Position numbers and translations under genes: made by a program. A DNA stretch of 64,000 nt from Nitrosococcus halophilus Nc 4 (GTDB taxonomy: Bacteria > Pseudomonadota > Gammaproteobacteria > Nitrosococcales > Nitrosococcaceae): the NCBI RefSeq assembly GCF_000024725.1, contig NC_013960.1, positions 3,706,001-3,770,000 of the forward strand. Reading direction: 5' to 3'. This document shows positions 19,457 to 46,996 of the stretch, piece by piece (the stretch's first letter is position 1; each line of letters begins with the position of its first letter). The notes under the pieces are model-generated. The model was not told where the DNA came from. It was given only the letters and a program-made list of their open reading frames with translations, and did not search any database.

Positions 19457-19549
19457 CTAAGTATCTATGAATAGAATAGGGGGATGTTTAGAAGCGAGGG
19501 GGTAGTGCTTTGCAAACCCGTTTTACCTCCCTGAAAAAAGGGTTTGGGG
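19457..19549 (+). repeat. Dispersed modular repeat, copy C
   Basis: It begins TAAGTATCTATGAATAGAAT and runs through GCAAACCCGTTTTACCTCCC to AAAAAAGGGTTTGGGG. This matches the first two thirds of copy A with few differences. The right-end module of copies A and B is missing. Confidence 0.75.
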
Positions 19550-26656: not shown

Positions 26657-28981
26657 TTGGTCAAAAACAGCGCCGACCCGCCTGCCACGGAGGAACAAGC
26701 CCAATCGCCCCCGGCATCGCGCCTAACCGCGGTTCATGCTCCGAAGGGAACTCTGCTTCACATCCTCCACAGTTGGGGGGGCGGTATCGCCCGCTGGACC
26801 GAGGACTTTGTCCGACACTGCCCTGAACGGCGCCACCTCATCCTGTATTCTCGCAGCAACCGTAACGTCTTCGGCCACGCCTTAGAACTGGTGGATCCGG
26901 CCTATCCAGAAACACCCCTTGCGGTCTGGGAACTCACCCCCCCGATTCTGGCCACCGGCATTACCCACCTCCAGTATGGAGCCATACTCTCAGACCTCCT
27001 CACCGGCTTGGCGGTGGAGGCCATTGTGGTCTCCTCCCTGATCGGGCACTCCCTGGAAGCCCTGACAACCGGCCTGCCCACCCTGCGGGTGCTGCACGAC
27101 TTCTATCCCTACTGCCCGGCCATGTTTGGTTACTTCAATGACCCCTGCCAACAATGCGATGAGGAAAGACTGACTATTTGCCTACAGTCCAACCCCCAGA
27201 ACGAATGCTGGCACAACTCCATCACCGAAGACTGGCTCGCCATGCGCCGGGCCTATGCCGCCGCGCTCCTCAAGCCCGAAGTTCACCTTGTGGCCCCTAC
27301 TCACACGGCGCGGGACAGGCTGTACCGGCTTTATCCCGAAATCGCCCGCAAAGCTTGTCACCTCATCGCCCATGGCATCGATCCCGCAAGGATGGGCTGC
27401 CCTACTCGACCCCCTCTGCTCCTTGCAAGAGAAGATGGGGGAAAACAAATCCAAATAGATAAAACCCGCAAATTGCGTATCCTCGTTCCCGGCCGCCTGG
27501 AACCCCACAAGGGCCTGCAACTGTTGCAGGACGCCCTGCCTCAGCTCACTGACAAGGCCGAATTCCTCCTCCTCGGCTGCGGCATATTAGGCCAATCTTT
27601 CGCTGACATGGACGGCATCACCCTCATCCCGGACTACAACTTCGCCGATCTGGGTCCCTTGGTCCAGGATTTCGCGCCGGATTGCGCCCTCCTTCTCTCC
27701 ACCCTACCGGAAACTTTCAGCTACACCCTCAGCGAAATGTGGGCGCTGGGCATCCCCCCTCTCGCCACCAACCTGGGCGCCTTCGCCGAACGCATCCACC
27801 ATGGCATAAACGGCTTCCTGTACAAACCTGACGTTCACAGCCTGACTGAACTGATTGCTTCTTTGGCCCAGGATCCCACGCCCCTCATCCACGTCGCCCG
27901 CTATCTAGGCGCTCACCCCGTACGCCATGTAAAAGACATGGTCGAAGATTACCAGGCCCTGCTGCCAACCCCGAGCAGACCTGAAGGTCCTGGAAGCTGG
28001 CTGGCCCTAGGTATTGAGGGCGCTCAGTCCCGTTACCACTCAAACGACAGGGCACGGGAAACAGAAATCATTCGTCAGGTTGGGGAATTAGAAGAAACCC
28101 GCCGCCAACTTGAACGGACACGCCATGCCCTCACTCATCACCAAACCCGTGCCGATATGCTAGAACAGGAACTAGCAGCCCTGCGCCACTCCAACTCCTG
28201 GCGCGTAACCGCGCCCATCCGAGCCATCACCCTGACTTTCCGTGCCCTCCGTAGCCGCTTCCGCCGACATTCAGTAAACCAGACCGCCCCTACCTCCACG
28301 GGGAAAAACCAGGAAAGCCTCCCCCCTCATCCACCCCCTGACACTATCGCCACCCCTGGGAGGGCAGGCAAGCTCACTGGAAACGAATTTGGACCCGACA
28401 GGGGTCTCAAGGAGAAAATTAGGAAAGGCGCGCATCACCGATTCGCCGGGAGCGAATCGGGACATCTAAAGGATGCCCGCAGGGGGCGCGCCAGGGAAGG
28501 CGCGCATCACCGTCTTAAGCTCCGTGCTCGCCTGCGAGAACAGCTTGGCATACCCGACGCCGCTCGCATTGTCTTGGGCATCGCTCAGCAAAACCGGCCG
28601 GACGCGGCGCATGAGTTTATCCAAGCCGCAATCCGGCAAGCAAGCATCCAACGGAATCTGTATTTTTTGTGGCTGGAAGGGGAACACATGCCCCCCATCC
28701 CAGCGAGCTTAAAAGCGAGGGGACTGGCTAGGGCTCCCCGCCGCCTGCATTTCGTCACCGATTCGCCGGGAGCGAATAAGGCAACCGCCTTTACCCTCCC
28801 CGAATATCTGGCGGCTTCAGACTTGATCTACCTCCCCGAGGCGGGCGATGCAACCCGGCCCACTCCAGCCGAAATAGGGCTGCTCAAGGTGCCGGTCATG
28901 AGCGTTCCCCGGGGAAACGATTTGACCATTACACTGGCAACGGCATTAAAGGAATTCCCTCCAGGAAACCCCGCTGACTAG
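26657..28981 (+). CDS. Family 4 glycosyltransferase with coiled coil and truncated second GT domain
   Basis: Starts at TTG, with CGGAG 6 bases upstream. Residues about 30-440 form a GT-B domain (LLHILHSWGGGIARWTEDFV, ILVPGRLEPHKGLQLLQDAL, PETFSYTLSEMWALGIPP). A coiled coil (470-515) ends in the SNSWRVTAPIRA motif common at such junctions. Residues 589-618 are encoded by a palindromic repeat. The last 150 residues resemble the C-terminal half of another GT4 domain. Its stop overlaps that of the convergent HAD gene at CTAG (28978-28981). It probably acts in surface glycan assembly. Confidence 0.85.
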   Translation: MVKNSADPPATEEQAQSPPASRLTAVHAPKGTLLHILHSWGGGIARWTEDFVRHCPERRHLILYSRSNRNVFGHALELVDPAYPETPLAVWELTPPILATGITHLQYGAILSDLLTGLAVEAIVVSSLIGHSLEALTTGLPTLRVLHDFYPYCPAMFGYFNDPCQQCDEERLTICLQSNPQNECWHNSITEDWLAMRRAYAAALLKPEVHLVAPTHTARDRLYRLYPEIARKACHLIAHGIDPARMGCPTRPPLLLAREDGGKQIQIDKTRKLRILVPGRLEPHKGLQLLQDALPQLTDKAEFLLLGCGILGQSFADMDGITLIPDYNFADLGPLVQDFAPDCALLLSTLPETFSYTLSEMWALGIPPLATNLGAFAERIHHGINGFLYKPDVHSLTELIASLAQDPTPLIHVARYLGAHPVRHVKDMVEDYQALLPTPSRPEGPGSWLALGIEGAQSRYHSNDRARETEIIRQVGELEETRRQLERTRHALTHHQTRADMLEQELAALRHSNSWRVTAPIRAITLTFRALRSRFRRHSVNQTAPTSTGKNQESLPPHPPPDTIATPGRAGKLTGNEFGPDRGLKEKIRKGAHHRFAGSESGHLKDARRGRAREGAHHRLKLRARLREQLGIPDAARIVLGIAQQNRPDAAHEFIQAAIRQASIQRNLYFLWLEGEHMPPIPASLKARGLARAPRRLHFVTDSPGANKATAFTLPEYLAASDLIYLPEAGDATRPTPAEIGLLKVPVMSVPRGNDLTITLATALKEFPPGNPAD
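28436..28505 (+). repeat. Palindromic coding repeat, copy 1 (full length)
   Basis: This 70-bp unit matches copy 2 at 30312-30381 in 69 of 70 positions. It folds into three hairpins: CCGATTCGC/GCGAATCGG, GGGACATC/GATGCCC and GGCGCGCC/GGCGCGCC. It is inside the GT4 frame and encodes HHRFAGSESGHLKDARRGRA. A 16-base direct repeat (AAGGCGCGCATCACCG) at 28425 and 28497 suggests a partial tandem unit of 72 bp, a multiple of three. Confidence 0.85.
28756..28777 (+). repeat. Palindromic coding repeat, short partial copy
   Basis: These 22 bases equal the first 22 of copy 1 (CACCGATTCGCC, then GGGAGCGAAT). They are read in a different frame, as TDSPGAN. It lies 320 bases downstream of copy 1 in the same gene. 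Confidence 0.6.
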
Positions 28982-31098
28982 AGGCTTGGGGAGAATCGAC
29001 GCCGAATCCAGCGCCGGATACTCAGTGCCCGCAGAAACCAACCCAGCACCCAGCGAAAATTCGAATCAACATCGGGACAAACCAACAATCCCGATACCCA
29101 ACCGTTTTCCATCAGGAACTGGTGTAGTTTTTCCCGATGTTTCCTGGAAATGAAAGCCTTTAACACCTCTCCGGAGGTCAGCATCCGCTGCTTGTTGGAG
29201 AATCCCCCCGTGCCAAAGGTCTCGTTATGATTGAGTTGGAAATAAGCCTGAGCTAGGAATGGAGGGGGACGCTGGATAATTTCCGACCAGATGTCCAGGG
29301 CCATCGGTCGAAGCTCATCGGATGAATAGGCATGGGTACGCAGAAAATCGGCCCAAAAAGATACCGAATCCAATACCCCGGCCTGAAAATGGCGGACACA
29401 AGCTTCGTATATCTGGTTTTCCCCCTCATCCACATGGCGGTGAACTCGAACACTATCCTTGCCTATCTCATAGCCTATCACGCTGCCATAGGGAGAATTA
29501 CACAGCATCTCCACGGGGGCGACGAAATCTAGCAAGTGCCCATGGGCTTCATCTCCGTTCAGGTTGGGACCAAAGGCCTCTTTACGAACATTTTCTGGCT
29601 GGATATTAAGAAAATGATTCAGGCCCAGGTAATAGCCCCGCAGCTCCACTGAGGGCAATGCATGGGCCAGATTGTCCTGTATCGTGCCTCGCCAGCCGAT
29701 GTCCACAATTCCCACTCGGCCGGCGGTATCCAACAGACCGGCGGATTCCAAGTAAGCGGATAATTGTGCCCGTTTGACATTCAAATGGCTCTCCATTTCC
29801 GCCCTGACCTCAGGATCATCAAGGAAAGCCTTGACCCGCTCGTCCTGCCAAGGATAGCGGATGGGCTGCTGCAACTCCAGACCATGACGAACTGCCTGCT
29901 CGGCGAATGCCGCCGACTCCATCCCCAGGGATTTCAACAGTGCGTGTAAAGGCTGAATGCTGTATTGGTTCCACAGACGCATCAACTCCCCCGTGGACAA
30001 CTCTCGCAGGGAGCCGGCAAAAGTGGCGATACGGCTGACTTGGAGCAACTGGGCGGGCGGCGGTGGAAACCCGAGCAAATCCGATTCTGTCAAGCGGTGG
30101 TAGATTTCCATAAAAAGTTCACCTTCCCGGGTGAAGAAATATAACTTTTCTACCTGATCAGCCACCGCCCGTTCCATGATACCGACGACAAAGCCCACCA
30201 ACAGCAAAGAACACTTTCGGCCATAGTTGTAAACCTCCTGTTCCCACTCTGAGGGAAGAGGAGCAGTGAGCAGATCTTGGATCGCCGCCTGTAGCGCCTG
30301 GGGACGAGCGCCACCGATTCGGCGGGAGCGAATCGGGACATCTAAAGGATGCCCGCAGGGGGCGCGCCAGGGAAGGCGCGCCTCAAAATCGGCCTCCCGC
30401 TGCCGCCGTCTTTGATGCTCCTCTTCGGGCTGGAAATGAATCGCCGCGACACCGGTTTTCTTTGCCGCCCGAACATCGGCATCAGGGTTGTCTCCCACAT
30501 GGAGATGTTGGTCTGGCGAAACGCCAAACTGTTGGTGCAAATACTGGTAGAGCCGACCGGAGCGCTTGTTCAGACCCACCTCGCAGGACACCACTCCCTC
30601 CGCCGCTAGATGAACGATACCGTGATGAGCAAGCAATGCCCGAACAGCCGTGGCCGGCAGATAAAAGTCCGAAAGAAAGCACCGCCTAGCGGCAGAAGAG
30701 TGGGTCAACGTCCCCGCAATAGTCGGATCCGGGTAGGAAACAAACTTTTCCTGGGAAATTTCCACCTGCTCCAGGGTCAGTAGCAACTGTTCCAGGGCGT
30801 CACTGCCCAAGGGAAAAGGCTCTAGTCCTGCCAATGCCAACCAGCGCCGGTAAACATCCAAATGGCGGTACTCGTCATCCATGCCCTGTTGCCGGCTGTC
30901 GTCCCCCAACTCCTTTTCCGCCTGCTGGCGCAATCGCAGCAACGTCCAACTATCTCGATTCTCGGGAAGTAGGTATTGGGTATAATTCAGCGCCACATAA
31001 CGGCACACTTGCAGCTTTACACTATCGGGATGACAACGGCGACGCAGCAAGGTATCCCAAACATCAATGGTCAGTAACTCATAGTTTTGCCCCGTCAC
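28978..31098 (-). CDS. HAD-domain protein of the polysaccharide locus
   Basis: The first 235 residues form a HAD hydrolase-like domain: motif I is DVWDT at 12-16, LSDFYLP is near 142, and HVGDNPDADV is near 200. Residues about 240-265 are encoded by a palindromic repeat in reverse orientation. The remaining 440 residues form a second domain (YFFTREGELFMEIYHRL, GIVDIGWRGTIQDNLAHALP) that I recognise only as common in HAD proteins of O-antigen loci. The role is unknown; phosphatase or sugar-phosphate processing is plausible. It lies 25 bases after the preceding GT gene. Confidence 0.75.
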   Translation of the reverse strand: MTGQNYELLTIDVWDTLLRRRCHPDSVKLQVCRYVALNYTQYLLPENRDSWTLLRLRQQAEKELGDDSRQQGMDDEYRHLDVYRRWLALAGLEPFPLGSDALEQLLLTLEQVEISQEKFVSYPDPTIAGTLTHSSAARRCFLSDFYLPATAVRALLAHHGIVHLAAEGVVSCEVGLNKRSGRLYQYLHQQFGVSPDQHLHVGDNPDADVRAAKKTGVAAIHFQPEEEHQRRRQREADFEARLPWRAPCGHPLDVPIRSRRIGGARPQALQAAIQDLLTAPLPSEWEQEVYNYGRKCSLLLVGFVVGIMERAVADQVEKLYFFTREGELFMEIYHRLTESDLLGFPPPPAQLLQVSRIATFAGSLRELSTGELMRLWNQYSIQPLHALLKSLGMESAAFAEQAVRHGLELQQPIRYPWQDERVKAFLDDPEVRAEMESHLNVKRAQLSAYLESAGLLDTAGRVGIVDIGWRGTIQDNLAHALPSVELRGYYLGLNHFLNIQPENVRKEAFGPNLNGDEAHGHLLDFVAPVEMLCNSPYGSVIGYEIGKDSVRVHRHVDEGENQIYEACVRHFQAGVLDSVSFWADFLRTHAYSSDELRPMALDIWSEIIQRPPPFLAQAYFQLNHNETFGTGGFSNKQRMLTSGEVLKAFISRKHREKLHQFLMENGWVSGLLVCPDVDSNFRWVLGWFLRALSIRRWIRRRFSPSL
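30312..30381 (-). repeat. Palindromic coding repeat, copy 2 (opposite orientation to its host gene)
   Basis: This 70-bp unit differs from copy 1 by one base. The host HAD gene reads the complement of the strand used in the GT4 gene, giving ARLPWRAPCGHPLDVPIRSR, and stays open. It falls in the linker between the HAD domain and the C-terminal domain. Confidence 0.85.
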
Positions 31099-33135: not shown

Positions 33136-34452
33136 TTAAAGCGCCAAAAACTTCGGCCATATCCGTTTAAGGTATCGAGTTGCACGGATAAAGAAATTCC
33201 CATTTAGTTTCGCTATTTCCGCTTGCATCGCTTCAATTTGATTATCCCGGTTGGCGATTTCCCCATTCATCTGCTGGATAATATGCCAGCGCTCCTCAAT
33301 CATGGCCGCCTGGCTGGCAATACACTCATCCCGGTTGGCGATTTCCCCATTCATCTGCTGGATAATATGCCAGCGCTCCTCAATCATGGCCGCCTGGCTG
33401 GCAATACACCGATCCCGGCTGGCGATTTCACCGCTCATCTGTTGCATGGCTTGCCAACGTTCAGCCAGCATGGAGGCCTGATCAGCGAGCTGCTGAATGG
33501 ATCGAAAAACCTCTGGCGGGCAGGAAGCCGCCTCGGCCATCTGCTGCAATCGCCAGCTTGCACCGTCTCCAGCCGCAAACTCCAGCAAGCGCCGCTCTTC
33601 CACCCCAGCGAGGCCATAAATCAAATAACATAAAAGAGAGAGCGGATGAAAGCTCTCATTCTGCATCAAGGCCAGGAGAATCGCTTCCACGCGGGCTTCC
33701 GCCTCCGGGCCGTTCCCTGAACGTAGTCCCAGTGAGAGCAGGGCCTTGGCCTGAACATAGGAATTTTCATGGATATGACGCCAGAGGTCATCTTCGGACA
33801 GGGTATTGGCTTCATGGACACGATAGGCCAGCAAATTTTCCCGAACCCAGATCGGGGTTCTGTACTGGCTGGCCCGTAAGACCCAATCCCAGTCGTGGGT
33901 ATAGCGCAGAGGAAAAAAACCGCCGACCCGATTGGCTAGGGAGCGGGAAAAAAAGAAATTGGAGGTAGTCATGGCAAGATTGCCGGCGAAAAACCAATTC
34001 GTCGGACTCAATGTTTCACAATGGCCGCGCAGCGTATTATAGCTTTGGGCGCGAAGGTGATGGGAAATCGGGGTTCCAGAGGGGCCAATGAAGTCCACAT
34101 CGCTGAAAACGAAAACATCGTTCCCACTCGACTGCCCGGCTGCTGACAACAACCGCTGGATCCGGCAAGGGGCATACGCATCATCGGAATTCAGGATAGC
34201 GATATATTCCCCCTGGGCCAGGGCCACCCCCTCGTTCAGGGTGGCGTCAGCCCCCCGATTGGTGTCATGTCGGCGCAGCCGTAGGCGGCTATCCTGAAAA
34301 GATTGGAGTATCTCCCAGGTGCCATCCTGGGAGGCATCGTCGATGACAATGAGTTCCAGATTCCGATGAGTCTGGCCGAGCACGCTCTCCACCGCCGAGG
34401 AGACGTAGCTCTCGTGATTGTAGGCGGGAATGATCACGCTTACCAGGGGCAT
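33136..34452 (-). CDS. Family 2 glycosyltransferase with C-terminal tandem coiled-coil repeat
   Basis: The GT-A domain begins at the start codon (MPLVSVIIPAYNHESYVSSA) and carries VIDDASQDGT and ILNSDDAYAP. The ATG at 34452 has GAGG 8 bases upstream; the frame is open 73 residues earlier but that part re-reads the preceding gene. The C-terminal 110 residues form a coiled coil with 28-residue repeats (CIASQAAMIEERWHIIQQMN), followed by a basic amphipathic tail that may contact the membrane. It lies 35 bases after another GT2 gene. Confidence 0.87.
   Translation of the reverse strand: MPLVSVIIPAYNHESYVSSAVESVLGQTHRNLELIVIDDASQDGTWEILQSFQDSRLRLRRHDTNRGADATLNEGVALAQGEYIAILNSDDAYAPCRIQRLLSAAGQSSGNDVFVFSDVDFIGPSGTPISHHLRAQSYNTLRGHCETLSPTNWFFAGNLAMTTSNFFFSRSLANRVGGFFPLRYTHDWDWVLRASQYRTPIWVRENLLAYRVHEANTLSEDDLWRHIHENSYVQAKALLSLGLRSGNGPEAEARVEAILLALMQNESFHPLSLLCYLIYGLAGVEERRLLEFAAGDGASWRLQQMAEAASCPPEVFRSIQQLADQASMLAERWQAMQQMSGEIASRDRCIASQAAMIEERWHIIQQMNGEIANRDECIASQAAMIEERWHIIQQMNGEIANRDNQIEAMQAEIAKLNGNFFIRATRYLKRIWPKFLAL
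33251..33502 (-). repeat. 84-bp tandem coding repeat (28 residues, four heptads)
   Basis: Units 33251-33334 and 33335-33418 differ at about two bases. The third, 33419-33502, is clearly diverged. They encode coiled-coil repeats, so length variation would change the reach of the coil without a frameshift. Confidence 0.9.
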
Positions 34453-35477: not shown

Positions 35478-35508
35478 GTAGGGCGGATAAGCGCAGCGCA
35501 TCCGCCGA
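35478..35508. repeat. Palindromic intergenic repeat (GGCGGATAAGCGCAGCGCAT type), copy 1
   Basis: TAGGGCGGATAAGCGCAGCG continues into CATCCGCC and forms a hairpin with GGCGGAT/ATCCGCC arms. The complement of the same sequence is at 46966-46996. Such units are common in intergenic DNA of many proteobacteria. Confidence 0.65.
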
Positions 35509-35532
35509 CATTCTTGCTACGTACATCAAAGG

Positions 35533-38500
35533 TCATTGGTCATGGCAGGCGGCTTCATAGACGCGCAAGGGGTCTATTCCTGTTAACCTAGGCGGTAGCG
35601 AGGGGGCCGAAGAACGCCGGTAAACCTCGGTAATAAGCTCCCTCGAAGACTCCAAATGAACCTCCATATCATCGCTGGCCTGTTTGACTCGCGCCAGGGT
35701 CGCCATAAAAGATTCCCGGGTTTCTGAAGACACCAACTCCATGAGTTGGTCCAAGATTTTATCTACATCCTGCCAATCCTCCATTATCCAACCTGCCCCC
35801 GTCTCCACTACTCTGTCTTGGAGCGTGCCTATGGGGGGCACTAACACCGGTCGGTCAGCCGCCCAGGCCTCGGAAAGGGTATAGGAAAAGGTTTCAGGGC
35901 CTGCCGAGGGGAACACCACCAGAGAAATGGCGTAATGATCCAGCAAGGCAGGCAACTCCTCCTGCCCATAAGGACCATGGAGCGTTAACACCCGGTCCTC
36001 GCTCTGATAAGGCACGGGCGGATCACCTTGGCGATCCGTGTATCCGATCACCACCCAGCGCAACGGCAATTTTCGCTCCCGGGTTTTTTCCACCAACCGC
36101 TCCAGCTTTCTGGCCCCTTTCACCGGCCCAATGGCGCCCAACACGCCAATCGACTTGATGCCATCCTTCGGCAGCAAGAAACCCTGAAGATGACCCCCTC
36201 TTAGCTTGGGAAGATCTAGATGGGGGACGTTAGGAATCACGGTAACAGGCACCCTAGGAAAATAGCGGTTAAGGGTATGCTTGACCCAAGCCGACGGGGC
36301 AAACACAAAAGCGGCTTTGGATAAAAAATTTCGATGCCTCCAGCGCCATTCTTCTATATCGATATGGGCAAAAGCCCCCTGCGCCCCAAGACATTGACGA
36401 CACAGTTCCAAATCGGTCGTGGCATCACAATAATGGCCACTGCCATCCAAAAGATTAATCGTGGGACATGCCAAAAAGAAATCATGGACACTAAAACCAT
36501 AGGGAATCACCGTTCCCGCAAAGGCCTCCAGCAATCCATCGCGGCAACCGGCCAGGTGATGAATGTGGCACAATTTAATCTCCAACCACCCACAAATCGC
36601 CTCCAAAAAATCCGTCCAGGTTTCACCATCCCGGCGCTGGAAACGATAATTTTGCTCTTCCTCTCCAGGAAGAAGCCCTTTGACCACCCATTCCTGCTCT
36701 AAGGCGATTAGCACATAGTGTCGAAATTCACCTGCAACTAATGTCGCCAGATTTCTGATATAAGCCCCTATCCCGCCGCCACGGCCCCGCAACACCGCAG
36801 GTCCCCCATGGCCATGCATAACATGCAGGATTCCCGGCATTCCAGGGGCAGAAAGAAGCTGGAGCTGGATTTCAATCAATTGCCGAATCGGCTGGAGCGG
36901 GTCCTGTTTGATAAAACCATTGACCTGTTCCAAGTAGGTGGGGTGCTTATTCAGCAGCGCCGCCATTTGCTTTTCCGCGATGACCTTTTTTTCTTGGCCA
37001 AAGGAGCCTCCGCCCACATGGGCCACATAGGCATCGCTACAGAGCACATTCCGAAAGCCCGCTTCTACAGCACGCAGGCATAAATCATTTTCCTCCCCGT
37101 AGCCCTTGCCAAAAGCATCCACATCAAATAACCCCACCCTATTGATGAGCGCCCGGCGTATATACAGGCAAAACCCCACCCCGGTAGGAAGCTCCGGATA
37201 GACGGTTATCCCGGCCCGATCCATGGCCCGATTGATCAATTCTGGATTTTCTGGGAAGGGGTTTTCCCGGCAAAAATCAGGAAAAGAACAGATCTCCCCA
37301 TTATTGGAGAAAGGGGTAATGGTGCCTATTTTCGGGTCCGAAGCAGCACAGCGCTTGAGTTTTCCGAGCCAATGTTGAGTCACCAAGGTATCGGAATTTA
37401 ACAGCACCACATCATTTCTGCCGATGGACATTCCCCGATTGGCGGTGGCGACGAATCCCTGGTTGTGCTCATTTTGCAGCAGCACAATATTCTCTTCTCC
37501 CCCCGTCCTAAGCTCCTCAAACAAAGTCTGAATGCGACTATCTGTGGAAGCATCATCAATGAGCACCAGTCGATAGGGGTCATCGGTGCAGCGGCGTATG
37601 CTCTCTAGACAGGCGCGCAGAGGCTCATAAGCATTATAAATAGGAATTACAATATCAATGGATGGGGAATCGGCCTTTTCGATTTTTGGGCGGTTTAGAT
37701 ACCAACGCTTCAACGGCCGGAAAGGTCGGCGCACCCAGCCGCGAAAACTTTCTTGATAAGCAAGCCGAGTTTCTAAGTAGCGGGTCAGAGCATTAGCTTC
37801 GGCCAACTGCTGTTCATAGGCGGTGAGTTCCCGCTGCTGCTGCTCGACTTGTTCATGAAGCGCTTGCAGATCTTGAGCGTTGATTGCAAGCAGTCGATCT
37901 TTTTCTTGCAACTGACGCCCGTGATAGGCAAGGAATCGATCCTTTTCCCCCAATAATCGATCTCGCTCTTGTATTTCTCGATCTTTCTGCCCCAGGCGTG
38001 GCGCCAATGCCATGAAATCAGCGGACAGGGGCCAGGAGGCTTGGATCTCCAAAACGCCCCCTCCTTGCAGCGCCCCTAAGGTCTCGGCCTCCAGGGGCAA
38101 TTCAAAATAAGGATTTTTGCCCATTAATAAAGCATTGACCCCCAAGGCGGTGGCCCACCCACTGGAAAATTCCATCTGGTGTATTTTATTCACCGGCAAA
38201 GGGGCCCTATCACCGTTCCATCGCCAAATGCTGCGATTTTCCTTATCGTAAAGGTCTATTTGGTAAATTCGCATGAAACCGGGGCGATCGGCGGGATTGA
38301 GCCGCATCCCGGTGGGAACTTCAGCCAAAGGAGGAATGGAAAAACGGATCACCTGGCGCTCGGCGCCAATACAACCCAGGGTACAACAGCTATTTTCCTG
38401 ATGATATTCAGCCTTTCCAAAACGCCAGTAGAGTTGGCAAGCAAAATGGAACCCGGGGGTAGTAGGGGGGGCTTCTGGTTTTTGGGTGGCCTGTTTTCCC

Positions 38501-39246
38501 GGTATGGCCTCAACGATAAATTGATAGGTTAAAGCATCAGGGTAGGCTTTCAATAAACGATAAATAGCGGGGGGCAAGGCCTCTAAATAATAGCCTCGAA
38601 ATTCACTCGCCCTCATATCGCAGGGTATCGCCTCTACCGAAAGGGGAGCCAAATCATGGCGATTGAGAAATTCCAATAGGGATTTGCGAGTAAAAAACCG
38701 CAAATGGGTCACATCCAGCAATCCCTCGGGACGATAGCGAAACTCTCCCGCCAGTAGTTCAGCAATCACCCCTGCATGGGCAATATTAGGAATGGAGAGC
38801 AAGATCCGGCCATTGGGTCTCAATAAGGGGGGCAGTTGGGAAACCACCGCCCCTGGATTCTTTAAATGTTCAAGGACATCGGCGCAGACGATATAATCGT
38901 AACGGTAATGCTCACCCCCCTTCTGGATATTTTCCGGATGTCCCGATTCGCTCCCGGCGAATCGGTTAGGAAAAAGCGTCCTTAGCTGAACTTTCTCCAG
39001 GTCGGCTATCCGCAAATCCCGATAAAAAGGTTCGGCAAGCTGGGCTTGTTCAGGACTGAACTCCACGCCATCCACAATGCAATTTAATGCCGTGGATAAA
39101 TATTTCCCCAAAACTCCAGGGCCGGTGCCTAAATCCAATACCTGAGTATGGGGACGGATAAGGCGGGCAATTTTAGCCAGGGAATCGTCTCCCTGGGGAT
39201 CTAACTCCCGGGCATAGAGATGACTTTCTGAGAAAAACTGGTCCAT
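35533..39246 (-). CDS. Giant methyltransferase-GT2-GT4 glycan assembly protein
   Basis: The 1237 residues have several domains in order. An N-terminal SAM methyltransferase (about 1-235) has VLDLGTGPGVLGKYLS and YIVCADVLEHLKNPG. A beta-rich region (240-410) is followed by a coiled coil (415-495). A GT2 domain lies at about 525-780 (IDIVIPIYNAYEPLRACLES, LIDDASTD, VVLLNSDTLV). A GT4 domain lies at about 815-1200 (GAIGPVKGARKLERLVEK, PETFSYTLSEAWAADRPVLV). Residues 94-104 derive from the palindromic repeat. Such fusions act as processive or chain-capping enzymes in O-antigen loci; here the coupling of methylation and sugar transfer is inferred. Confidence 0.87.
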   Translation of the reverse strand: MDQFFSESHLYARELDPQGDDSLAKIARLIRPHTQVLDLGTGPGVLGKYLSTALNCIVDGVEFSPEQAQLAEPFYRDLRIADLEKVQLRTLFPNRFAGSESGHPENIQKGGEHYRYDYIVCADVLEHLKNPGAVVSQLPPLLRPNGRILLSIPNIAHAGVIAELLAGEFRYRPEGLLDVTHLRFFTRKSLLEFLNRHDLAPLSVEAIPCDMRASEFRGYYLEALPPAIYRLLKAYPDALTYQFIVEAIPGKQATQKPEAPPTTPGFHFACQLYWRFGKAEYHQENSCCTLGCIGAERQVIRFSIPPLAEVPTGMRLNPADRPGFMRIYQIDLYDKENRSIWRWNGDRAPLPVNKIHQMEFSSGWATALGVNALLMGKNPYFELPLEAETLGALQGGGVLEIQASWPLSADFMALAPRLGQKDREIQERDRLLGEKDRFLAYHGRQLQEKDRLLAINAQDLQALHEQVEQQQRELTAYEQQLAEANALTRYLETRLAYQESFRGWVRRPFRPLKRWYLNRPKIEKADSPSIDIVIPIYNAYEPLRACLESIRRCTDDPYRLVLIDDASTDSRIQTLFEELRTGGEENIVLLQNEHNQGFVATANRGMSIGRNDVVLLNSDTLVTQHWLGKLKRCAASDPKIGTITPFSNNGEICSFPDFCRENPFPENPELINRAMDRAGITVYPELPTGVGFCLYIRRALINRVGLFDVDAFGKGYGEENDLCLRAVEAGFRNVLCSDAYVAHVGGGSFGQEKKVIAEKQMAALLNKHPTYLEQVNGFIKQDPLQPIRQLIEIQLQLLSAPGMPGILHVMHGHGGPAVLRGRGGGIGAYIRNLATLVAGEFRHYVLIALEQEWVVKGLLPGEEEQNYRFQRRDGETWTDFLEAICGWLEIKLCHIHHLAGCRDGLLEAFAGTVIPYGFSVHDFFLACPTINLLDGSGHYCDATTDLELCRQCLGAQGAFAHIDIEEWRWRHRNFLSKAAFVFAPSAWVKHTLNRYFPRVPVTVIPNVPHLDLPKLRGGHLQGFLLPKDGIKSIGVLGAIGPVKGARKLERLVEKTRERKLPLRWVVIGYTDRQGDPPVPYQSEDRVLTLHGPYGQEELPALLDHYAISLVVFPSAGPETFSYTLSEAWAADRPVLVPPIGTLQDRVVETGAGWIMEDWQDVDKILDQLMELVSSETRESFMATLARVKQASDDMEVHLESSRELITEVYRRSSAPSLPPRLTGIDPLRVYEAACHDQ
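38937..38965 (-). repeat. Palindromic coding repeat, copy 3 (first hairpin only)
   Basis: On the minus strand these 29 bases equal the first hairpin of copy 1 plus GGACATC. They are read as NRFAGSESGHP, the same frame as copy 1, inside the methyltransferase domain of the 1237-residue protein. Confidence 0.7.
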
Positions 39247-39263
39247 AATGATGAAATTTTTAG

Positions 39264-39456
39264 GCGTACTTAGCCTTATCCCAAAAAATTAGTGTTCTTT
39301 TTTCCCTTCTCTCCTTGCAGGAGAAGGTAATGCTCTTTTCCGCCCCATTTCCCCCAACGGGAGAAGGTAACGCTCTTTTCCGCTCCATTTCCCCCGGCGG
39401 GAGAAGGTGAGGATGAGGGGGATAATAAAAAACGTTATCGATTGGGATGGGTACTA
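39264..39456 (+). mobile_element. MITE-like element, family 1, copy 1 (internally expanded)
   Basis: It ends in ATTGGGATGGGTACTA and begins with a diverged CTTATCCCAAAAAATTAG. The core GGAGAAGGTGAGGATGAGGG matches the copies at 43613 and 46831. Inside, a block of about 50 bases (GGAGAAGGTAATGCTCTTTT and GGAGAAGGTAACGCTCTTTT) is repeated. It fills the space upstream of the methyltransferase gene at 39480. Confidence 0.65.
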
Positions 39457-43612: not shown

Positions 43613-43721
43613 TTAGACTAATCCCAAAATTAACGCTTTTTCCATCCCTTCTCCCCTGGCAGGAGAAGGTAATGCTCTTTCCCTTCCTTCAGAAGGTTAG
43701 GATGAGGGGGTTAATAGAAAG
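43613..43721 (+). mobile_element. MITE-like element, family 1, copy 2 (right end missing)
   Basis: The left end GACTAATCCCAAAATTAACG and the core GAGAAGGTAATGCTCTTTCC and GAAGGTTAGGATGAGGGGGT match the copy at 46831-46937. The right terminal repeat GGGATGGGTATTAG is not found after 43721. Confidence 0.65.
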
Positions 43722-46378: not shown

Positions 46379-46666
46379 ATGCCGGTTTTCAAGCGTACGG
46401 CGCAGGCGGAAGAAGACCTCATTGAGGTCTGGATGTATATCGCTCAGGAGAATGTGGCGGCCGCCGAGCGGCTGCTGGATGAGATTGACGCGAAATGCCG
46501 CTTGCTTGCCGAGCATCCTCGCCTGGGTGCGGCCCGTCCCGATATTGCGCCTGAGCTTCGTTACCTGCCCATAAGCAACTACCTGCTCCTTTACCGTGAG
46601 ATTGACCAAGGCATTGAACTGGTTCGTGTCGTTCACGGCGCGCGGCGGCTGGATCAGCTTTTTTAG
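46379..46666 (+). CDS. parE: ParE-type toxin
   Basis: The 95-residue protein matches the RelE/ParE fold (FKRTAQAEEDLIEVWMYIAQ, AEHPRLGAARPDI, LLLYREIDQGIELVRVVHGA). ParE toxins inhibit DNA gyrase and are held in check by ParD. The pair looks complete. Confidence 0.92.
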   Translation: MPVFKRTAQAEEDLIEVWMYIAQENVAAAERLLDEIDAKCRLLAEHPRLGAARPDIAPELRYLPISNYLLLYREIDQGIELVRVVHGARRLDQLF

Positions 46667-46830: not shown

Positions 46831-46937
46831 ATACTAATCCCAAAAATTAACGCTCTTCTCTATTCCTTCTCCCCTGGAGGGAGAAGGTTAGGATGAGGGG
46901 GTCAATAAAAAATGTTATTAATTGGGATGGGTATTAG
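46831..46937 (+). mobile_element. MITE-like element, family 1, copy 3 (both ends present)
   Basis: The left end ATACTAATCCCAA and the complement of the right end, ATACCCATCCCAA, agree in 11 of 13 positions. The core GGAGAAGGTTAGGATGAGGG is shared with the copies at 39264 and 43613. It has no coding capacity. Confidence 0.7.
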
Positions 46938-46965
46938 ACCACATCTCTGGTTAGAGCCAGGGTTT

Positions 46966-46996
46966 CGACGGATGCGCTGCGCTTATCCGCCCTACG
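46966..46996. repeat. Palindromic intergenic repeat (GGCGGAT type), copy 2
   Basis: ACGGATGCGCTGCGCTTATC followed by CGCCCTAC is the complement of the unit at 35478-35508. It forms a hairpin. Confidence 0.6.

Follow-up and report, generated by a model that had tools for sequence, protein, structure and literature searches.

The window, which is the whole 64,000-nucleotide stretch of Nitrosococcus halophilus Nc 4 DNA analysed here, includes two convergent genes on opposite strands, coding for a GT4-type glycosyltransferase and for a protein with a HAD-like domain. Each contains a copy of the same palindromic element, and both reading frames stay open (Table 1). A sequence-only reading of the window had described this element as a 70-bp unit, and the match on which the description relied, 69 identical bases out of 70 between positions 28436–28505 and 30312–30381, was confirmed; the inserted segment itself was found to measure 72 bp rather than 70 in both genes. 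A partial copy had also been noted at 38937–38965 in a third gene, which encodes methyltransferase and glycosyltransferase domains. This copy is indeed present, with a larger extent than first given, and is degenerate. The same stretch is found in a sister species (G003) with 84% identity over 171 ungapped bases, and this third copy is therefore older. Lastly, the reported 22-base piece at 28756 exists, but 21 of its 22 bases are carried by G003, so that it is not a recent insertion and may be either an old remnant or a chance likeness.

Table 1 The palindromic element, its parts and its host genes in the window (positions counted from the first base of the window), and sites of the same genome found unfilled in sister species (genome positions)
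Feature	Position	Strand	Basis or remark
Host gene 1, GT4-type glycosyltransferase	26657..28981	+	
Host gene 2, protein with HAD-like domain	28978..31098	-	
Host gene 3, methyltransferase and glycosyltransferase domains	35533..39246	-	
Element copy 1, 72-bp insert in the GT4 gene, 24 additional codons in frame	28438..28509	+	Alignment with the G003 orthologue without insert
Hairpin 1 of copy 1, 9 bp, loop CGGGA	28438..28460	+	Alignment A1, structure with covariation
Hairpin 2 of copy 1, 5 bp	28463..28475	+	Alignment A1, structure with covariation
Hairpin 3 of copy 1, 3 bp, CCC...GGG	28476..28485	+	Alignment A1; weakest helix, no pair changed on both sides
Hairpin 4 of copy 1, 7 bp, loop AGGGAA	28486..28505	+	Alignment A1, structure with covariation
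Element copy 2, 72-bp insert in the HAD gene (gene on - strand), 24 additional codons in frame	30314..30385	+	Absent from three sister species
Copy 3, degenerate and shortened, in the methyltransferase/glycosyltransferase gene	38905..38967	-	Model R1, 44.7 bits, E 2.7e-7; common to G003
22-base piece, like hairpin 1 only	28756..28777	+	21 of 22 bases in G003; may be chance
Unfilled site	2938311		Empty in three species
Unfilled site	2911515		Three species; small local differences, 3 extra bases in G001 and G002
Unfilled site	2794624		Empty in G002
Unfilled site	1533354		Empty in G003
Unfilled tandem pair	3128263		Empty in G002

The host proteins were aligned with homologues lacking the insert from three genomes of the same genus (G001, G002 and G003). 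In the HAD protein, no residue lies between positions 241–242 and 264 in any of the three, the homologous blocks covering residues 2–241 and 264–706 in G003, 3–242 and 264–706 in G001, and 1–223, 191–241 and 264–706 in G002, where the first two blocks contain TGA stops; the DNA alignment gives an insert of 72 bp, or 24 codons. The GT4 orthologue of G003 also lacks the 72 bp, while those of G001 and G002 are too diverged to be read at this site. About 20 bases at the empty GT4 site of G003 resemble the 3′ end of the element itself, and a loss in G003 by recombination between direct repeats is therefore possible there. The proposal that a palindromic element had been inserted in frame, in both orientations and in unrelated genes, is borne out by these unfilled sites.

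Fourteen additional sites of the N. halophilus genome were searched as joined flanks in the three sister genomes. This set left out most copies lying within three larger repeat families (R1–R3), partial copies, and the separately aligned HAD and GT4 sites. Five sites were unfilled (Table 1), four (1727705, 1204202, 1962473 and 1717126) were filled in G003 too, as read from split matches, and five (1708025, 1709379, 1358190, 1680161 and 2838466) gave no call. The cleanest empty sites read CCTTA^ACG, GGCCGGA^ATAAGG and AACCCA^ACG, the element C...TCA being placed at ^ with nothing duplicated or lost, and the HAD junction fits the same A^A rule with one substitution. Two exceptions were noted: the GT4 site reads TCA^CCG, and at 2938311 an A stands left of the cut in the filled site but a G in each of the three empty ones. 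At readable empty sites, the unit C...TCA thus enters between two bases, usually A^A, and no target site duplication of the kind that marks MITEs was found. Terminal inverted repeats, the other trait of MITEs, are likewise absent, the ends being by eye C... and ...TCA.

The region of copy 1 folds better than 200 out of 200 shuffled sequences, with a z value of -4.2 as DNA and -3.3 as RNA. Three hairpins had been claimed for the unit; the structure with covariation resolves four, of 9, 5, 3 and 7 bp. In an alignment of 30 copies from the genus, 12 of the 24 pairs were changed on both sides (3.3 in shuffled alignments) and 95.1% of cells pair. A wider alignment, in which 34 of the 45 copies come from G001 or from other genera, was fitted to the structure and hence leans towards it; it gave 225 cells with changes on both sides against 60.5 in shuffled alignments, with 96.3% of cells pairing. 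The trinucleotide GGA is found in the loop of hairpin 1 in 45/45 of these copies and in the loop of hairpin 4 in 41/45, both loops having it in 41/45; the corresponding counts for the genus set are 27/30 and 28/30. The stems are held by compensatory changes while GGA persists in two loops, and the structure is under constraint. No Rfam family matched at the gathering cut-off across the 64-kb window, and a scan of 12 loci at E ≤ 1 gave no significant match on the element itself; a sub-threshold RsmW match overlaps the element at L128 (27.1 bits against a cut-off of 52, E 0.8).

The whole genome (4,145,260 bases in two contigs, the larger of 4,079,427) was searched with the unit, giving at least 44 DNA matches with E values of up to 6 (threshold E ≤ 10), from 40 scored candidates out of 64. 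At E ≤ 0.01, a model scan found at least 50 copies in this genome, 49 in G003, 2 in G001 and 3 in G002, all of which are lower bounds as 150 candidates were scored per genome (150 of 1343 in N. halophilus). The earlier remark that all copies lie in the polysaccharide locus holds within the window and fails genome-wide. Copies occur in both orientations, and most lie outside long ORFs: nine distinct matches out of the 44 were located well within ORFs, defined as at least 40 codons within a stop-to-stop ORF of at least 150 codons, a tenth such hit being the other-strand palindrome match of one of the nine. Only one of 23 copies in G003 is inside a long ORF. Among 45 copies, all three forward frames are open in 33 against 21.3 expected, and one reverse frame is open in only 20 against 32.8 expected, so that the element is only partly ORF-friendly. 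One further in-frame copy was observed in a DUF6079 protein of G001 (L090, positions 46498–46572), with compensatory changes in its stems.

Part of the copies are nested in larger repeats. Left flanks are shared with other copies in 16 of the 44 own-genome matches, which fall into the three repeat families R1–R3, and 21 of 23 copies in G003 have flanks like those of repeat family R2. These counts, together with a tandem array of period 72 in another genome (G193), would fit a unit with no mobility of its own that spread as a passenger of larger repeats, by gene conversion or by tandem duplication. We regard this as very improbable, since unrelated, unique flanks with unfilled orthologues exist, copies lie within unrelated genes, and the T-loops of tRNA-derived sequences described below are entered in both orientations. 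The nested element can be seen in representatives of repeat families R2 (L005), R1 (L017) and R3 (L038); R2, which has by eye the inverted ends GGAGCGAGCCGGTGG, is predominant in G003.

An element restricted to the genus had been suggested by a DNA search of 39 relatives, in which only four same-genus genomes matched; this was overturned by the covariance model. Model R1, trained on same-genus copies only, matched in at least 126 of 369 genomes of the class at E ≤ 0.001 with 13 candidates scored per genome, and model R2 in at least 67 of 299 genomes of the phylum at E ≤ 1e-4 with 16 candidates scored per genome. Fuller rescoring of fourteen chosen genomes gave between 2 and 121 copies each, the highest count being that of G431. 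Many near-identical copies are present in G431, G193 and G462. An exact pattern of one subfamily retrieved 55 named stretches, including Woeseiaceae, Zetaproteobacteria, Ectothiorhodospira mobilis, Acidihalobacter, Nitrococcus and Lysobacterales. An earlier exact DNA pattern had given no match across genome contigs, a set from which the records of near relatives may be missing, and plasmids and phages gave no DNA matches. The sequence-only reading knew of no such element described for this group of bacteria. The element is confined neither to the group nor to the locus and belongs to a structured family spread across the Pseudomonadota; no description of the unit as mobile or gene-invading was found in the open-access literature searched. 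The array in G193 (L249) runs head to tail, with five full units and one partial.

The targets used in other genera were examined in 102 copies, a non-random sample with loci picked by best score (L118–L146) or by the subfamily pattern (L178–L232). A tRNA gene lies upstream of 37 copies at a distance of at most 400 bp, 16 are gene-interior (an ORF of 200 codons, with 40 codons on either side of the copy) and 49 belong to neither group. The insert is preceded by GA in 85 cases, CA in 12, TA in three and TC in two, so that an A stands directly before 100 of the 102. The 37 tRNA-adjacent copies form 41 copy–tRNA pairs, in 24 of which the tail of the tRNA recurs in the flank of the element with at least 75% identity; 22 of these 24 repeats start exactly at a cut in the T-loop, the other two being off by one. 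Depending on orientation, this cut reads TTCGA^ATCC or T^TCGA, the latter being the same TCGA^A when followed along the element. In the remaining 17 pairs, the repeat is less alike, cut short, shifted or paired with a second nearby tRNA. One locus (L140) has three 171-bp units downstream of a tRNA-Leu gene, with one copy in each. At L132, L134, L145, L123 and L146, an inverted copy of the T-arm was also observed downstream of the tRNA, with the loop TGAGA in place of TTCGA, as in the E. coli tyrT repeats.

The length of the insert is a multiple of three in 13 of the 16 gene-interior copies and in 48 of the 86 others, a difference that is not significant (p 0.09). Ten host proteins were scanned against Pfam, and in six the insert splits or falls within a domain, namely YqeY, YgjP, a competence protein, an IS66 transposase, a molybdopterin oxidoreductase and DUF6079; the insert lies outside the listed domains at L121, L012 and L016, and the L118 host protein has no Pfam match. 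The element provides a Pseudomonadota-wide case of in-frame peptide insertion, including within conserved domains. A further copy (L120) is located inside a group II intron, apparently a small one: the Rfam matches for this intron type lie around it, at L120:1342–1995. At L235 and L238, the copy is embedded in sequence that we take to be ERIC-like. This arrangement is present in 604 of 5426 E. coli genomes, at 605 places, and lies between panC and rpnC in the filled E. coli records viewed. Those E. coli records viewed that do not have the copy lack about 212 bp including the ERIC, and hence do not represent a site from which the unit alone is absent. Insertions of some 70 bp have been noted in ERIC before, and may be the 72-bp unit. 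Overall, the unit (C...TCA; 72 bp in intact copies of this species) is inserted precisely after an A, usually in CA or GA, and mostly before an A. In either orientation it enters intergenic DNA and other repeats, duplicated 3′ ends of tRNAs at the T-loop, and, in frame, genes.

A member of the family was found in E. coli K-12, in the rrnB T1–T2 region that is carried on many cloning vectors. The spacer between T1 and T2 matches model R2 over its full length with 62.7 bits (E 2.3e-16) and the full model R1 with 54.4 bits, sharing with the element its core sequence and the same helices. The match is flanked by GAGTAGGA and ACTGCCAGGC. As the 5S gene ends in GAGTAGGGAACTGCCAGGC, the cut is GA^A, with one G fewer, and the junction at the 5S end, GGGA^ACTGCC, obeys the same rule. 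In the available text of PMC8144298, the rrB small RNA gene is placed in this spacer and counted as one of 22 tRNA-linked repeats (TLRs) at ten loci, RrB-type TLRs having been known since 1978 and being given no origin there. In the same text, transcription of RrA, RrB and RrF is reported, as is their binding to Hfq and CsrA in vitro; GGA motifs, among them two in loops, are said to matter, and no CsrA binding is predicted for the remaining 19 E. coli TLRs.

The strength of the spacer match (E 2e-16) indicates that RrB and the gene-invading units belong to one structured family, which appears to have been mobile. As described in the part of PMC8144298 available, RrB is a small RNA at a fixed place conserved in Enterobacteriales, whereas the same fold is dispersed here, with up to 121 copies per genome, also in protein genes and with unfilled sites. 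No tRNA gene was detected in the 64-kb window or in 49 other loci from this and the sister genomes; lacking a tRNA copy beside them, the window copies share the RrB core but are not tRNA-linked repeats. The tyrT/rttR repeats gave full-length matches to the covariance model of 6–10 bits, which are not significant (E 0.03–0.26 in 3.6 kb), and show by eye the same T-loop layout. The 18–19 bp by which TLRs are defined would correspond to the distance from the T-loop cut to the end of the tRNA. If this is true, the tRNA copy in a TLR extends from the point of insertion in the T-loop to the end of the tRNA, and the 18–19 bp rule gains a simple geometric reading. The family joins RrB-type TLRs and gene-invading palindromic elements, which were found described only apart in the literature searched.

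On the basis of sequence comparison, the probable explanation that we propose for the unit is a small mobile element that is non-autonomous and belongs to a structured family found across the Pseudomonadota, the E. coli RrB RNA being one of its members. An enzyme acting in trans, with its gene elsewhere, would move the unit by recognising its folded single strand. The survival of in-frame copies in genes may be explained by a length divisible by three (72 bp) and by the small number of stops in the unit. Once transcribed, the two hairpins with GGA loops could bind CsrA, as reported for RrB, and fixed copies could turn into regulators.

The conserved loops would also be expected of a selected regulatory module, a CsrA- or Hfq-binding RNA retained where it is useful and not a selfish element. 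In favour of such a module, the loops are conserved while the stems covary, RrB binds CsrA in vitro (PMC8144298, in the text available), and in the phylum sample CsrA is found in 61 of 67 element-bearing genomes against 119 of 232 others (p 7e-10). This co-occurrence is confounded by ancestry and is not significant in the class sample (112/126 against 200/243, p 0.13); copies lie in both orientations, within genes and nested in other repeats, and a transposase could equally read the loops. We therefore do not claim dependence of the element on CsrA, which is unproven, and consider a purely regulatory origin unlikely. Three of the six phylum genomes that bear the element without CsrA are less than 75% complete. 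Mobility and CsrA binding might also be combined: tentatively, the element could be a mobile CsrA-binding module that with each jump sets a CsrA site in a new transcript, RrB and the other E. coli TLRs being its domesticated remains.

For a mobile element with a defined target rule, that rule offers a starting point for the search for the enzyme. REP elements, which together with BIMEs are short hairpin repeats that are often clustered, are thought to be moved by a Y1/HUH single-strand transposase. An enzyme of this type (IS200/IS605 or RAYT) would agree with the absence of target duplication and of terminal inverted repeats, with hairpins near the ends and with insertion just 3′ of a short motif. 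Eleven Y1_Tnp matches were found in the N. halophilus genome, and in the class sample Y1 is enriched among element-bearing genomes in a weak co-occurrence (92/126 against 133/243, p 7e-4). Yet 34 of these 126 genomes have no Y1_Tnp match, and to the left of the insert conservation is limited to an A, usually within CA or GA. In addition, the GTAG or CGTC tag that defines REPs in the available text of PMC3733652 is by eye absent from the consensus of the element, which further differs from REP and BIME by its four hairpins and its in-frame entry into coding genes. Movement by a Y1/HUH transposase is therefore, in our view, rather doubtful.

A recombinase of the IS110 family was also considered, as IS110/IS1111 elements often target palindromes. 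In G431, the genome with 121 copies, seven fetched units (L239–L245) are 93–98% alike and have inverted copies of the element about 1.3–1.6 kb apart, the gene between them in L239 being of the IS110 family. This insertion sequence seems to be part, together with the element, of a larger mosaic repeat, so that the linkage may be passive. It is unproven that the IS110 gene of G431 represents an autonomous form of the element, and transposition by such a recombinase seems to us quite improbable.

The non-autonomous mobile element proposed here was further compared with other small repeats. Its likeness to Rickettsia palindromic elements (RPEs), which the sequence-only reading had pointed out, was upheld as a likeness of behaviour: both are palindromic and found in frame in unrelated genes. 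RPEs are about 150 bp long according to the portion of PMC10969869 available, whereas the unit has 72 bp and four hairpins and is phylum-wide. With ERIC and with RU-1, RU-2 and RU-3 it shares the character of a small structured dispersed repeat, and RU elements are also described as fused in genes (PMC2759123 and PMC2229807, available text). ERIC has inverted ends and target duplication in the latter source as far as available, in contrast to the unit, which lacks both and can itself lie within ERIC-like sequence.

Other repeats were observed in the window. Three 84-bp tandem repeats lie at 33244–33495 in a glycosyltransferase gene, where they code for a repeated 28-residue segment, the first two being 98% identical. 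Two inverted repeat pairs were identified, at 2671–2741 and 19479–19549 (93% complementary) and at 35478–35518 and 46955–46995 (88% complementary), the latter beginning with GTAGGGCGGATAAGCG and having a REP-like look. Further dispersed repeats, of families D3 and D4, are located at 39281–39431, 43623–43720 and 46882–46911.
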